This document shows, piece after piece, positions 45,973-52,356 of a DNA stretch of 64,000 bases (within the stretch, counting starts at the first letter, position 1; each line of letters starts with the position of its first letter). The notes under the pieces are model-generated. The model was not told the origin of the DNA and ran no database searches. It worked only from the letters and a program-made list of their open reading frames with translations. The stretch is from Hydrogenovibrio marinus. Its GTDB lineage: Bacteria > Pseudomonadota > Gammaproteobacteria > Thiomicrospirales > Thiomicrospiraceae. The DNA lies in NCBI RefSeq assembly GCF_013340845.1, contig NZ_AP020335.1:1922001-1986000 (forward strand), given 5' to 3'. The position numbers and the translations under genes were made by a program.

Positions 45973-47427
45973 CTATTGATATGCTTCCGGCATTTGCTCA
46001 TGCCAGGAAGTCACTTGTTGAAATTGATGAGCAACATTTAGCAGCTTGCCTTCAGAGTGGTAAGTACCAATCAAGTGCAACCCTACCGGTAGACCTTCCG
46101 AAAATCCTGCTGGGATCGACATTGCCGGCAACCCTGCCAAATTGACTGGAATCGTATAAAGGTCGGCCAAATACATACTGATTGGATCATCTGATTTTTC
46201 ACCAATGTTAAATGCTGGTGTTGGGGCAACTGGCCCAACAATCACATCACACTGTTCAAATGCTTTAATGAAATCATCGCGCACCATGCGGCGTAGTTTC
46301 TGCGCTTTCAGATAATAAGCATCATAATAACCTTCAGACAACGCATAAGCTCCAACCATAATTCGGCGTTTTACTTCCGCACCAAATCCTTCAGAACGTG
46401 AGCGCATATACAAGTCACTCAAATCTTTTGGATTTTCACAACGATGTCCATAACGTACACCATCGAAACGAGACAGGTTCGAAGATGCTTCCGCTGGCGC
46501 CAGTACATAATAAGCAGGCACCGCTAAATCCTTATTCGGCAAGCTGACTTCGACAATATCAGCACCCTGCTGACGTAAAACCTCAATAGCAGCTTTCGTG
46601 ACATCTGACACAGATGCATCAAGCCCTTCACCAAAGTATTCCTTCGGCACACCAACTCTCAAACCTTTCAAAGATTCAGCCAACCGAGTCGTGTAATCCG
46701 GCTTTTCTTGTTCAAGACTCGTTGAGTCTTTGGCATCAAACCCAGACATAGCATCCAACAACCAAGCAGCATCTTCGGCGCTACGCGACATAGGGCCACC
46801 TTGGTCAAAACTAGAAGCGTAAGCGATCATCCCATAACGAGACACTGCACCGTAAGTCGGCTTAATACCCGTAATTCCACAGAATGAAGCCGGTTGTCGA
46901 ATAGATCCCCCCGTATCGGTACCTGTTGCCAAAGGCGCAAGACCTGCAGCAATCACCGCCGCAGAACCGCCGGACGAACCACCTGGAACAGCATTTAACC
47001 TCCATGGATTTTTGGTTGGACCATAATAACTACTTTCAGAAGATGATCCCATCGCAAACTCATCCATATTGGTTTTACCCAAGATAGGCATTCCAACAGC
47101 CTTAAGTTTTTCCACGACCGTCGCATCATAGGGCGCGACAAAATTATGTAGCATTTTCGAGCCACAGGATGTCTTCACACCATCGATACAAAAAATATCT
47201 TTATGCGCAACAGGAATACCTGTTAACAGTGAGCCTTCACCCTTATCCAACATTTCATCGGCTTTTTTTGCCATCTCAATCGCCAACTCCGGCGTAACGG
47301 TGATATATGCATTCAAATCACCATCATATTTTTCAATACGATCCAAATAGTGCTGAGTCAAAGCAACACTGGTAATTTCTCTGGCTTGGAGCTTTTCACT
47401 CATTTGTTTAATGGAAAGTCTATGCAT
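45973..47427 (-). CDS. gatA: Asp/Glu-tRNA amidotransferase subunit A
   Basis: 484 residues of the amidase-signature family. The catalytic lysine lies in [12 protein letters not shown], the Gly/Ser-rich loop is [34 protein letters not shown]. It supplies ammonia from glutamine to GatB. The gap to gatC is three bases and to gatB nine, so the operon is tight. Confidence 0.97.
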
Positions 47428-47430
47428 AAC

Positions 47431-47718
47431 TTACTCAATCACCTGTGGCACTAAATACATTCCACCTTCTGCCGAAGGTGCAATTTTTTGATACTTATCT
47501 CTATTGTTGCTTTCGGTCACAACATCTTCACGTAAACGCTGTACTTGGTCTAATGGGTGAGACATCGGCTCAACACCATCCGTATTGACCGCTTGCATCT
47601 GCGCAAAAAGATCTAAAATATTACTCAACTTATCAGCAACCTGATCGACTTCCTGCTCAGAAACAGAAATGGCTGCTAAACGCGAGATTTTGTTAACATC
47701 ATCTTTTCCGATGGACAC
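47431..47718 (-). CDS. gatC: Asp/Glu-tRNA amidotransferase subunit C
   Basis: 95 residues. KISRLAAISVSEQEVDQVADKLSNILDLFAQMQAVNTDGVEPMSHPL is the typical GatC pattern. It braces GatA and GatB. The start is GTG with GAGGAG upstream. It opens the operon, divergent from mreB; the 290-bp gap between them has two ATAAAATGG words (about 47862 and 47892) on the mreB side and no gene. Confidence 0.95.
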   Translation of the reverse strand: MSIGKDDVNKISRLAAISVSEQEVDQVADKLSNILDLFAQMQAVNTDGVEPMSHPLDQVQRLREDVVTESNNRDKYQKIAPSAEGGMYLVPQVIE

Positions 47719-47992
47719 TGATAAAACTCCTCACAACAAGCGCACAAACACTAAAGAATGTACACCAAAAATTTCACTGAAAAAAATTCCTATTAAATTA
47801 CCACATTTCGGCTTTTCTAAAAAGAGACAGCTCCTTTTTTCTATAAAAAAATCAGATATAAAATGGTGACTTTTTTCAGTGAGTTTGTTATAAAATGGCT
47901 CAATCTCGTTTAGTGGGACAGCCGGACAGGATTGCCGGTCTTTTAGGGTATTCATAAATACATTTAATACCTTAATATCCCTTCGTTTCTAG

Positions 47993-49057
<1,065 letters not shown>

Positions 49058-49080
49058 TTTCCACGCTTAACAACTAACAA

Positions 49081-49151
49081 GGTTCGGCTCAATGTATTTG
49101 TTTAATTTAAATCTATTAGATTTAACTCAACGATAACCAAGGAGTCGAACC
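49081..49151 (+). promoter_or_regulatory. Structured mreB-mreC leader that can cover the mreC ribosome-binding site
   Basis: GGTTCGGCTC (49081-49090) pairs with GAGTCGAACC (49142-49151) at nine of ten positions. Inside lies the perfect hairpin TTAAATCT-ATT-AGATTTAA (49107-49125). The right arm includes part of the AAGGAG ribosome-binding site (49139-49144) and ends at the mreC start codon. That layout would let the RNA limit mreC translation or respond to a signal; this is inference from pairing alone. Confidence 0.6.
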
Positions 49152-50030
49152 ATTAACCTCAGCACAACCTCTCCACAAAAAGAAGGGTCTCAGTACCTCT
49201 TATTTTTTGTCCTGTGCATCGCGCTGATGGTTATGGATCACTACAGCCATTTTCTTATTAATTTCCGTGCTCTACTATTAACAACCATTGACCCTATTGA
49301 ACGGGCAGCAACTATCCCTCTTAGCACATACCAGTATTTCCAGCAGGACTTCAAAACAGTAGAAGACCTTAAAAAACGCAATCAACAGCTAGCAACTGAA
49401 AACCTGCTCTTAAAGGCAAGACAACAACAACTGAATAAACTTCAGCATGAAGTGTCACGTTTGAATTTGCTGTTAGGCACTGCCAGCCAAATGTCTACTT
49501 CGGATGTGCAAATTGCCAACATCAAATACTATAACCTATCTCCTTACTCTCAGTTTTTCACGCTGGACAAAGGATCCCTCGATGGCGTTAAACTCCACCA
49601 AGCTGTAATTGATGCCAAGGGGCTCATCGGACAAATTACCTCGGTGACTCCGACAACTTCTAGAGTTCAACTTATTACCGACTCTGACATCCAGATTCCA
49701 GTTCGCATACAACGCACTGGACAACGAGGCATTTTGACAGGAATGGGACAATCCCAACTATCACTACAGTTCATCCCTAACACAAGCTCTATTAAAATCG
49801 GCGATATCATCGAAACCTCTGGCCTAGGCAATGTTTATCCTAACGGCTACCCTGTCGCCACTGTCAGCAGCATCAATACCCTGAAAGATCAACCCTATTA
49901 CGAAATTATGGCCGACCCTGTTGCAGACATCAATTTGGCCGACAAAGTTCTAATTCTTTCTCCGGTTAAAAACCCAAGTATAGACGTTCATATCGACACC
50001 AAACTGAATGGAACTGCCGCAGATGAGTGA
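49152..50030 (+). CDS. mreC: Rod-shape protein MreC, probable ATT start
   Basis: 292 residues if it starts at ATT 49152. The frame is open from 49137 to 50030 but has no ATG, GTG or TTG before the ATG at 49227, which would cut away most of the membrane helix (YLLFFVLCIALMVMD). AAGGAG stands seven bases before the ATT. Residues 14-32 form the helix, then a coiled coil (DFKTVEDLKKRNQQLATENLLLKARQQQL) and the beta domains (LDKGSLDGVKLHQAVIDAKGLIGQI, IGDIIETSGLGNVYPNGYPVATV). MreC links MreB to PBP2. Rare start codons are known to keep expression low. Confidence 0.93.
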   Translation: MNLSTTSPQKEGSQYLLFFVLCIALMVMDHYSHFLINFRALLLTTIDPIERAATIPLSTYQYFQQDFKTVEDLKKRNQQLATENLLLKARQQQLNKLQHEVSRLNLLLGTASQMSTSDVQIANIKYYNLSPYSQFFTLDKGSLDGVKLHQAVIDAKGLIGQITSVTPTTSRVQLITDSDIQIPVRIQRTGQRGILTGMGQSQLSLQFIPNTSSIKIGDIIETSGLGNVYPNGYPVATVSSINTLKDQPYYEIMADPVADINLADKVLILSPVKNPSIDVHIDTKLNGTAADE

Positions 50031-50526
50031 TAAGGTTTTTTCTCTTAGTTTTTCCCATGTTAAGTGGCTTTTACTCTTCAGCTACTTAGCAGGACTCATT
50101 ATTGATAGTGCATTAAACTTCAGTTTTGCACTGCACTATGCCCCGCCAATTACACTGCTGCTACTATTGTTCTGGAGTTCGCAAATTTTAAACCAGACGC
50201 ATCTTTTTACAGCATTTGTTCTTGGGTTATTAAATGACGCTTCACTGAATACGCCCTTAGGCGCTCATGCTTTGTTATTCTTAACTGTCACATTCTTCAT
50301 GCTGCGAATACGCCTTAGGTTTAGAAGTTACCCTATGTGGCAACAATCAATTATCGTGGCTTTCTACATCCTGTTCTTCCAAGTTGCCGGCTGGTTTATT
50401 TTTCACCCGACACTCTCAGGAAACACACTACTCTATTACTGGCTAGAACCCATTTTTGCCATTGCGCTTTGGCCTTTGGTTTCCAACGTCATGCAGTCAC
50501 TGACTCAGAGGGCTTTATTCAAGTAA
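50023..50526 (+). CDS. mreD: Rod-shape protein MreD
   Basis: 167 residues with about five hydrophobic helices. The start is ATG 50023, overlapping the mreC stop by eight bases, so translation is coupled. The pattern GLLNDASLNTPLGAHALLFLTVTFFM is typical of MreD. It is an inner-membrane protein of the elongasome. A frame starting 15 bases earlier is possible but less likely. Confidence 0.93.
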   Translation: MSDKVFSLSFSHVKWLLLFSYLAGLIIDSALNFSFALHYAPPITLLLLLFWSSQILNQTHLFTAFVLGLLNDASLNTPLGAHALLFLTVTFFMLRIRLRFRSYPMWQQSIIVAFYILFFQVAGWFIFHPTLSGNTLLYYWLEPIFAIALWPLVSNVMQSLTQRALFK

Positions 50527-50532
50527 GCTCTC

Positions 50533-52356
50533 ATGCAACCAAGACGTAACAACTATCAATCAGAAAACGAAGTCAATCAGCAAAAATTGCTGTTTAGGGG
50601 GCGACTTTACTTCGCCTTAGGCTTTGTTATTGTCTTCTTTCTTGTCCTTTTTGGAAGAATGTCCTACCTACAGTGGCTGAACTACGACCACTACCATGCC
50701 ATGTCCGAAGGTAACCGTATTTCAGTTGAAGCGCTCCCACCGGTAAGAGGCAAAATCTATGATCGAAACAATGTACTACTTGCTGACAACCAGCCTGTAT
50801 TCGCGCTAAAGTTTTCCAAGGACAAAATCGATAATATTGACGCGACCATTAACCTTTTGAAAAAATTGCTGCCGGACATCCCTGACAGCAAATTGGAAAA
50901 GTTCTATAACCGTTTAAAAGTTGCCAGCAAATATCGCCCAATCTACTTGCCTTACAGCTTAAGTGAAAGTGAAGCCTCCGTCTTTGCGGCTAACAGCTAT
51001 CAGTTTTCAGGGGTCACCCTAACGGGCAAGCTAAAACGTATCTATCCGTTTGGTCCGGTTGCTGTGCATGCCATAGGCTATGTCGGCAAAATCAACCCTG
51101 CTGAAGTAAAGACCCTAAATGAATCTGACTATCAAGGTACCGATGTCATAGGAAAAACAGGCGTTGAACGCACTTATGAATCTGTACTGCATGGCAAACC
51201 TGGGCTACAACAAGTAGAAACCAATGCCAGAGGTAAAGTCATTCGTAAATTGGAGACAGAACCCGCCACCCCAGGAAAAGATATCCAACTGACTATCGAT
51301 ATCAGACTTCAAAAATTTATTGAAGAATATCTGGGCAACAAAAAAGCGGCAGTGGTTGTTATCGAGCCAAAAACAGGAGAAATCCTCGCCTATGTCAGCT
51401 CTCCTGGCTATGATCCTAACCTTTTTGTAGATGGAATCAGTAGCAAAAACTATTCTGCGCTACTCCACAACCCGTACAGACCTTTAATCAACCGTGTCAT
51501 TAATGGCCAGTACCCTCCGGGCTCAACCATCAAACCCTTTGTTGCACTATCTGCGATTGAAAATGGTGTTATCTCGCCTTACACCAAAATTTCTGACCCT
51601 GGGTATTTCGACTTCAAAAACCATCGTTACCGCGACTGGAAACGTGGCGGCCACGGATTGGTTGACATGAACAAAGCCATCACCGAATCTTGCGATACCT
51701 ATTTTTATGAGCTCAGCTTGAAAATGGGTATTCAAATGATTCACGACGACCTTTATCCTTTTGGTTTTGGCCACACAACAGGCATCGACCTACATGGAGA
51801 GTCCAGCGGAATCTTGCCCTCTAAAGAATGGAAGCGTGAAACCAAGAACAAACCATGGTTCAAGGGTGAAACCATCATTGCCGCCATCGGACAGGGTTAC
51901 TTCCTAGCAACACCGATACAGTTAGCAAAAGCGGTCGCAATCATGGCAAACCGAGGCAAAATCATTACCCCTCATTTACTAAAAGGTAAAGACATTGAGC
52001 CTCAACCTCAAATCTCAATTGAAAAAATCTCCAACTGGGAAAAAGTTATTAAAGGCATGATGAACGTCATGAGCAGCTACCATGGTACGGCTTACCGTTA
52101 TGCCAAGGATCTTCCATTTACTATAGCCGGCAAAACGGGTACCGCTCAGGTATTCAGTCTTGGTGACGAGGACTATGACGAAGAAAACATTAAAAAGACA
52201 CTCCGTGACCACTCGTTATTTATTGGCTTCGCCCCAGTGAAAAAACCTAAAATTGCGATAAGTGTTATTATTGAGAACTCAAGTGTGAAGGCTGCTCCTG
52301 TGGCTGTTGACATTGCGCGCTACTACCTCACACAACTGCACAAAGATGAATCCTGA
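50533..52356 (+). CDS. mrdA: Penicillin-binding protein 2 (elongasome transpeptidase)
   Basis: 607 residues: one N-terminal membrane helix (about 25-45), a dimerisation region with PPVRGKIYDRNNVLLADNQP, and the transpeptidase domain. Its three active-site motifs are PPGSTIKPF (nucleophile Ser), ESCDTYF, and AGKTGTAQVF. It crosslinks peptidoglycan during elongation, working with RodA. The rodA start overlaps its stop (TGATG). Confidence 0.97.
   Translation: MQPRRNNYQSENEVNQQKLLFRGRLYFALGFVIVFFLVLFGRMSYLQWLNYDHYHAMSEGNRISVEALPPVRGKIYDRNNVLLADNQPVFALKFSKDKIDNIDATINLLKKLLPDIPDSKLEKFYNRLKVASKYRPIYLPYSLSESEASVFAANSYQFSGVTLTGKLKRIYPFGPVAVHAIGYVGKINPAEVKTLNESDYQGTDVIGKTGVERTYESVLHGKPGLQQVETNARGKVIRKLETEPATPGKDIQLTIDIRLQKFIEEYLGNKKAAVVVIEPKTGEILAYVSSPGYDPNLFVDGISSKNYSALLHNPYRPLINRVINGQYPPGSTIKPFVALSAIENGVISPYTKISDPGYFDFKNHRYRDWKRGGHGLVDMNKAITESCDTYFYELSLKMGIQMIHDDLYPFGFGHTTGIDLHGESSGILPSKEWKRETKNKPWFKGETIIAAIGQGYFLATPIQLAKAVAIMANRGKIITPHLLKGKDIEPQPQISIEKISNWEKVIKGMMNVMSSYHGTAYRYAKDLPFTIAGKTGTAQVFSLGDEDYDEENIKKTLRDHSLFIGFAPVKKPKIAISVIIENSSVKAAPVAVDIARYYLTQLHKDES

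Follow-up and report, generated by a model that had tools for sequence, protein, structure and literature searches.

To our knowledge, few bacterial genes depend on AUU, AUC or AUA as start codons. The pcnB gene of Escherichia coli is said, in the title of a 2002 paper by Binns and Masters, to carry an AUU start that limits its translation, and the same codon opens mreC in the DNA considered here, a stretch of 64,000 nt from Hydrogenovibrio marinus (referred to below, at its whole length, as the window). Genes of one operon may also be linked by translational coupling through short leader or bridging open reading frames (ORFs), the stops of which lie near, or overlap, the next start, with translation of the upstream frame opening an RNA stem. 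The window is similar in that a short ORF stops near the mreC start and differs in that 34 nt separate the mreB stop from the start of this ORF.

The infC gene, which encodes IF3, resembles mreC in having a conserved non-canonical start. In this same genome infC starts on ATC (L220:1216-1218, contig C1), in the context AAGAGGATAAAACC ATC GCA GTT AGA, and between an upstream TAA and the conserved protein, a stretch that includes a purine-rich site ahead of the ATC, the reading frame contains no canonical codon; the organism therefore uses such starts. Autocontrol by IF3 in E. coli, and an ATC start of infC in Streptomyces, are described in PMC5472188. Since mreC does not encode IF3 there is, unlike for infC, no closed loop, and MreC would passively read IF3 activity.

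The same paper presents Streptomyces sigR, the GTC start of which is repressed by IF3 such that altering either the codon or IF3 raises SigR. A non-canonical start, preceded by an extensive Shine-Dalgarno (SD) sequence, keeps this operon gene below the level of its partner, as may be true of mreC, but sigR is the first gene of its pair and starts on GTC, whereas mreC lies behind mreB and starts on ATT, ATC or ATA; moreover, the IF3 effect was demonstrated for sigR while for mreC we infer it. In Staphylococcus aureus, cvfC1 and ccpN carry conserved AUU and AUA starts preceded by strong extended SD sequences, and yield about 10% of the AUG level in poor medium (PMC13009471). They share with mreC the combination of conserved start and strong SD, and differ in belonging to another phylum and in being other genes. 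Among the matches listed by full-text searches of PMC, a resource outside which most subscription papers lie, none described a non-canonical start for mreC; the gene is a new addition to this known group.

The reading that we favour, with a probability of about 0.7, is that MreC is throttled by an AUU start which IF3 should reject, and that lineage-specific hairpins and mini-ORFs tie mreC to the translation of mreB.

The mreC start codon in the window, the family and the class

The locus lies on the forward strand of the window. The mreB gene (48014..49057) has an ATG start and a TGA stop at 49055-49057 and scores above the cut-offs of NCBIfam NF010539 and TIGR00904; mreC (49152..50030) encodes 292 amino acids when read from ATT and exceeds the cut-off of the equivalog TIGR00219; and mreD (50023..50526), which starts on ATG and overlaps the end of mreC, exceeds that of TIGR03426. 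The MreC protein is 99% identical to that of Hydrogenovibrio sp. JE_KL2 (class Gammaproteobacteria). Given the mreB stop and the mreC ATT at 49152..49154, the gap is 94 nt, the length given in an earlier note on this DNA. That note had also assigned the ATT start, and the reading frame bears it out: a TAA at 49134-49136 is followed in frame by no ATG, GTG or TTG until 49227, which is within the hydrophobic N-terminal segment. When the protein is read from ATT, residue 16 aligns to position 14 of TIGR00219, near the beginning of the model.

Across the family, mreC starts on ATT or ATC in 30 of the 34 genomes examined, and 27 of these 30 lack any in-frame ATG, GTG or TTG from the upstream stop to 22 codons before the Asp that ends the membrane helix. 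When the 30 family loci outside genus g2 were aligned on this helix, an Ile codon was present at the start position in every one (13 ATT, 17 ATC), the codons just upstream being variable. As a control, mreB was read at 30 family loci, the window included, and showed ATG at the same place in 30/30. The four genomes of genus g2 (L065-L068) are canonical (by rule, ATG in three and TTG in one, the latter having ATG ATG immediately before the TTG). They also lack an SD match of 4 nt or more, and provide a natural comparison for start-codon exchange.

A broader survey covered 142 genomes of the class that do not belong to the family, in most cases with one or two sampled from each family, and starts were called by a position rule. 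It drew on 145 loci from 156 genomes with a match; of these loci, L104 and L146, with no usable helix anchor, and L216, which contains Ns, were dropped. The loci L003 and L004, from a separate search, did not enter the analysis. The calls were ATT 33, ATC 37, ATA 17, ATG 33, GTG 7, TTG 3 and none 12, giving 87/142 with ATT, ATC or ATA (hereafter ATH; AUU, AUC or AUA in the mRNA), 43 canonical and 12 uncalled. The position rule is imperfect, and in 25 of the 87 ATH calls a canonical codon is present somewhere in frame. Less dependent on the rule is the set of 62 of 142 genomes in which the frame, from the upstream stop to 22 codons ahead of the helix-end Asp, contains no canonical codon; in 60 of them ATH stands where expected or one codon earlier. 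Doubtful cases among the 62 are L211, with an ATG just inside the limit, and L163, whose ATC is oddly positioned. A nearby canonical codon also casts doubt on the ATH calls for L069, L071, L127, L166, L192 and L205. Fourteen additional class loci yielded four (L235, L236, L246 and L253) with ATH and no canonical codon.

The position itself is sharply marked. ATH occurs at the modal place, 28 codons before the helix-end Asp, in 70/140 loci, while the two codons that follow have it in 1/141 and 2/141; the next-highest nearby positions are -29 (16/137) and -25 (20/141), many of the latter corresponding to the Ile of a KPIF-like motif. This count used 141 loci, with L076, L096, L166 and L214 re-anchored and L140 left out, its anchor having been set later by hand for the 142. 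The common context of the ATH start is ATH AAA CCG CTG TTC, for which the E. coli counterpart is ATG AAG CCA ATT TTT.

The gene after mreC provided a second control, where the criterion was that some ORF of at least 120 codons near the mreC stop have a canonical start, and such a start was available at 53 of 54 loci. The single locus lacking one, L109 (G100), may have an unusual mreD start or a changed gene order. Outside the class, in other classes of the phylum, a canonical codon was found near the helix in 33/33 loci read, these being drawn from 74 genomes with a match, 13 among the best matches and 20 hand-picked across families. Taken together, the genome comparisons indicate that the ATT start of mreC is real, that it belongs to a pattern seen across the class, and that it is the finding worth following at this locus. 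The start codon, which the earlier note treated as a side matter, is the widely conserved part.

ATH starts are also linked to SD strength. Among the class genomes, an SD match of at least 4 nt precedes 63/87 ATH starts versus 19/43 canonical ones (Fisher p 0.002), and the SD duplex energies of the two groups differ with p 2e-6, both p values being guides only because the genomes are related. E. coli mreC has an ATG start with no recognisable SD site. A weak codon with a strong SD, or an ATG without one, would both give weak initiation, and this would fit selection for low MreC; the many gammaproteobacterial relatives that start mreC on AUU, AUC or AUA suggest that MreC output is deliberately low. 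E. coli could have masked the pattern, its lineage having AUG without a clear SD rather than a weak codon with a strong one.

Hairpin and mini-ORFs in the mreB-mreC gap

The gap RNA of the window folds into a hairpin, all parts of which lie on the forward strand. The arms of its outer stem are at 49081..49090 (GGTTCGGCTC) and 49142..49151 (GAGTCGAACC), as located by folding and, for the 5' arm, by two-sided changes in the related genome G004; a middle 5-bp helix pairs 49098..49102 with 49129..49133, and an inner hairpin pairs 49107..49114 with 49118..49125, both being found by folding and by pair alignment. In the earlier note the outer stem was described as 10 bases with one mismatch, and both arms do lie where it placed them, but the supposed mismatch at 49087/49145 is a G-U pair and hence 10/10 outer positions pair in RNA. 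The perfect 8-base inner hairpin that it described was recovered with all 8 pairs. The folding energy is -28.7 kcal/mol against -18.6 +/- 3.1 in shuffled sequences (z -3.27), with 0/200 shuffles as good, and the energy calculation that the note had proposed as a check thus yields a real, stable hairpin; for the gap folded alone with 12 further bases, z is -4.48 (60 shuffles).

Two related species (G001 and G004) share this hairpin, which is present in 3/11 of the genus genomes examined, the window included. In the three-sequence alignment 98.6% of cells are paired, a single cell being unpaired, and sliding the partners lowers pairing to 26-52%. All ten outer pairs are kept, with compensatory changes. 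Among the three species, two pairs of the outer stem and one of the inner hairpin have changed on both sides, a result reached by 15/500 shuffles, and the absence of compensatory changes which, according to the note, would have spoken against a functional fold is therefore not what the relatives display. In a simulation of random change, all ten outer pairs were kept with a probability of 0.098 when only transitions were allowed and 0.002 with any substitution; because retention is not very unlikely under transitions only, the covariation claim rests on the two-sided changes. Coming from three sequences only, the covariation support for the hairpin may be rated as moderate. The hairpin is real and confined to close relatives, and its function is moderately supported. 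Beyond these three species there is a hairpin tendency, not a single conserved structure.

Within the hairpin, though absent from the earlier note, lies a 14-codon ORF (MYLFNLNLLDLTQR-stop, 49092..49136, forward strand), the stop of which (49134-49136) is also the in-frame upstream stop of mreC and ends 2 nt before the AAGGAG of the mreC SD. An AAGG at 49079..49082 on the same strand, 9 nt before the ATG, is a possible ribosome-binding site for it, and both this motif and its spacing recur in G001 and G004, where the ORF has the same length, with codons substituted and no indels. When gaps of 30-200 nt were scanned, leaving out longer gaps and shorter ones (including that of G008, at 22 nt), 10/10 of those tested in the genus contained an ORF, 6 codons or longer, that ends between -20 and +30 nt of the mreC start, against 1.9 +/- 1.2 expected from shuffled gaps. 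Five of the ten show a bridging form, with an ATG 1-2 nt after the mreB stop, where 0.13 are expected, and the bridging ORF stops overlapping the mreC start codon in G003, G007 and G009 and 7 nt into mreC in G002 and G010. These five sister species lack the window hairpin. In the family outside the genus, a mini-ORF was found in 1/12 and the bridging form in 0/12 of the gaps tested; in the class, there is a small excess of both (23/76 versus 15.6 +/- 3.0 expected, and 7/84 versus 3.2 for the bridging form).

The mini-ORF may, nevertheless, be a chance ORF, such that only the ATH start and a partial sequestration of the ribosome-binding site matter, and we regard this as a serious contender, if on balance the less probable view. 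The gap is A+T-rich, conservation of the peptide does not extend from one species group to another, and 11/12 of the tested family genomes outside the genus have no mini-ORF. Against this stand the excess over expectation within the genus, for the bridging form in particular, and the constant length in three species in the face of substitutions. Because the peptides differ between groups, it is the geometry rather than the peptide that would matter. The limits of the mini-ORF scan were set after the sequences had been seen, and the ten genus genomes, which are related and not independent, form about five groups by eye; for these reasons we put coupling of mreC to mreB translation through the mini-ORF at about even odds or slightly better. 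With 34 nt between the mreB stop and the mini-ORF ATG, the window is a less certain case of reinitiation than the sister species are. In E. coli K-12 MG1655 (L089), too, a 25-codon ORF (MQAGEVSVYPAWSDTRIRITYEANF) opens with an ATG 4 nt past the mreB stop and ends 17 nt into mreC; the gap of this strain folds with z -2.39.

Rather less probable is an intercistronic element for mRNA stability or processing, such as an RNase III/E site, by which mreCD would be protected or set apart, translation control being secondary. Stable hairpins are common in the gap within the family, 9/17 gaps of 40-300 nt folding with z below -2, and at least one of them, in G029, lies upstream of the ribosome-binding site and leaves it uncovered. 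According to PMC13192273, the mreB-mreC gap of Cupriavidus metallidurans has a large stem-loop that two mutations improve, which would also be consistent with such an element. The tendency is only modest in the class outside the family (14/70 with z below -2), however, and in the window the last base of the outer 3' arm directly precedes the mreC start codon, an exact placement that a pure stability element would not need. Two gaps of 227 and 223 nt, L151 (G154) and L165 (G195), fold with z -6.5 and -5.9 (60 shuffles) before mreC genes that start on ATG or GTG, and these long-gap folds are possibly separate RNA elements.

The hairpin could alternatively be a switch in its own right, a thermosensor or a protein-binding operator, hiding the mreC site until a signal arrives, with the ATT incidental. 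The stable fold, the compensatory changes and the 7-nt spacer between SD and start, which is wholly paired, are in accordance with this possibility. The SD, AAGGAG (49139..49144, forward strand), lies 7 nt before the ATT, and the 3' arm takes in GAG (49142-49144), so that the stem covers part of the motif as the earlier note had said, but only that half of it; the ATT is mostly free in the window fold (0.16 paired). Mean pairing of AAGGAG is 0.61, and 74/100 controls with shuffled upstream sequence pair it as much or more, while for G001 and G004 43/100 and 89/100 controls are at least as high. The further proposal of the note, that the hairpin can hide the mreC ribosome-binding site, is accordingly not borne out by folding in the window. 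Hiding of the SD beyond chance was rejected here and held for four genus members without the window hairpin (G009, G002, G010 and G003), in which the SD is 95-99% paired and only 3-6/100 shuffles reach that level. Among 30 family loci the SD is unusually paired in 8 (at most 6/100 controls) and unusually open in 5 (at least 93/100), and therefore follows no common rule of pairing. With the hairpin limited to three of the genus genomes examined, and ATT or ATC conserved where it is absent, an independent switch is improbable.

Known elements were sought as well. Rfam models run against 46000-52000, with E up to 5, gave no hit at the gathering score, the only match being SNORD70 (24.5 bits versus a gathering score of 50, E 2.8), and a known RNA family, leader or riboswitch was rejected on this basis. 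Neither an intrinsic terminator (a stem followed by a T run) nor a promoter or tRNA was found in the gap, and a repeated element was rejected, since a 321-base stretch matches the genome once at E 0.001 or better.

A possible throttle on MreC synthesis

That MreC arises through frameshifting or readthrough out of mreB, or begins at a non-ATH codon, is an alternative that draws on the rarity of non-canonical starts and is very improbable, given gaps of 11-114 nt with all three remainders modulo 3 (28/30 family loci, where the mreB stop was found), the stop that lies in frame 15 nt before the ATT of the window, and the invariant Ile codon behind variable codons at the family loci outside g2; frameshift or readthrough was rejected.

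On the favoured reading, that a weak start codon throttles MreC, ribosomes would finish mreB and some would restart at the mini-ORF, run through and open the stem, and stop on or beside the mreC ribosome-binding site. The strong SD would then hold the small subunit, and the AUU, as an expected target of IF3, would let only part of the subunits initiate. If IF3 discriminates against the ATH codon of mreC as it does for infC, each mreBCD mRNA would therefore give much less MreC than MreB, and a low level of MreC would be predicted, as would a control of the MreC to MreB ratio, which the earlier note had suggested. In this Hydrogenovibrio lineage, the hairpin of the close relatives additionally encloses the spacer and half of the SD. 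Five sister species lack this hairpin yet have the bridging mini-ORF, so that what all of them share would be the coupling of mreC to mreB translation, with the ATH codon acting as the main throttle.

The full picture, in which an AUU, AUC or AUA start of MreC, a component of the wall-elongation machinery, lets shape control throughout the Gammaproteobacteria read IF3 and ribosome status directly, and in which Hydrogenovibrio has added a hairpin and a mini-cistron chaining mreC to mreB, is put forward tentatively and at somewhat under even odds. If it is true, the elongation of the wall would be bound to the status of initiation factors through a morphogene start that many families have kept, and there would be a simple handle on how MreC stays low relative to MreB. 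Gene finders confined to ATG, GTG and TTG must then misplace the mreC start in such genomes; here their first candidate would be at 49227, inside the hydrophobic N-terminal segment.
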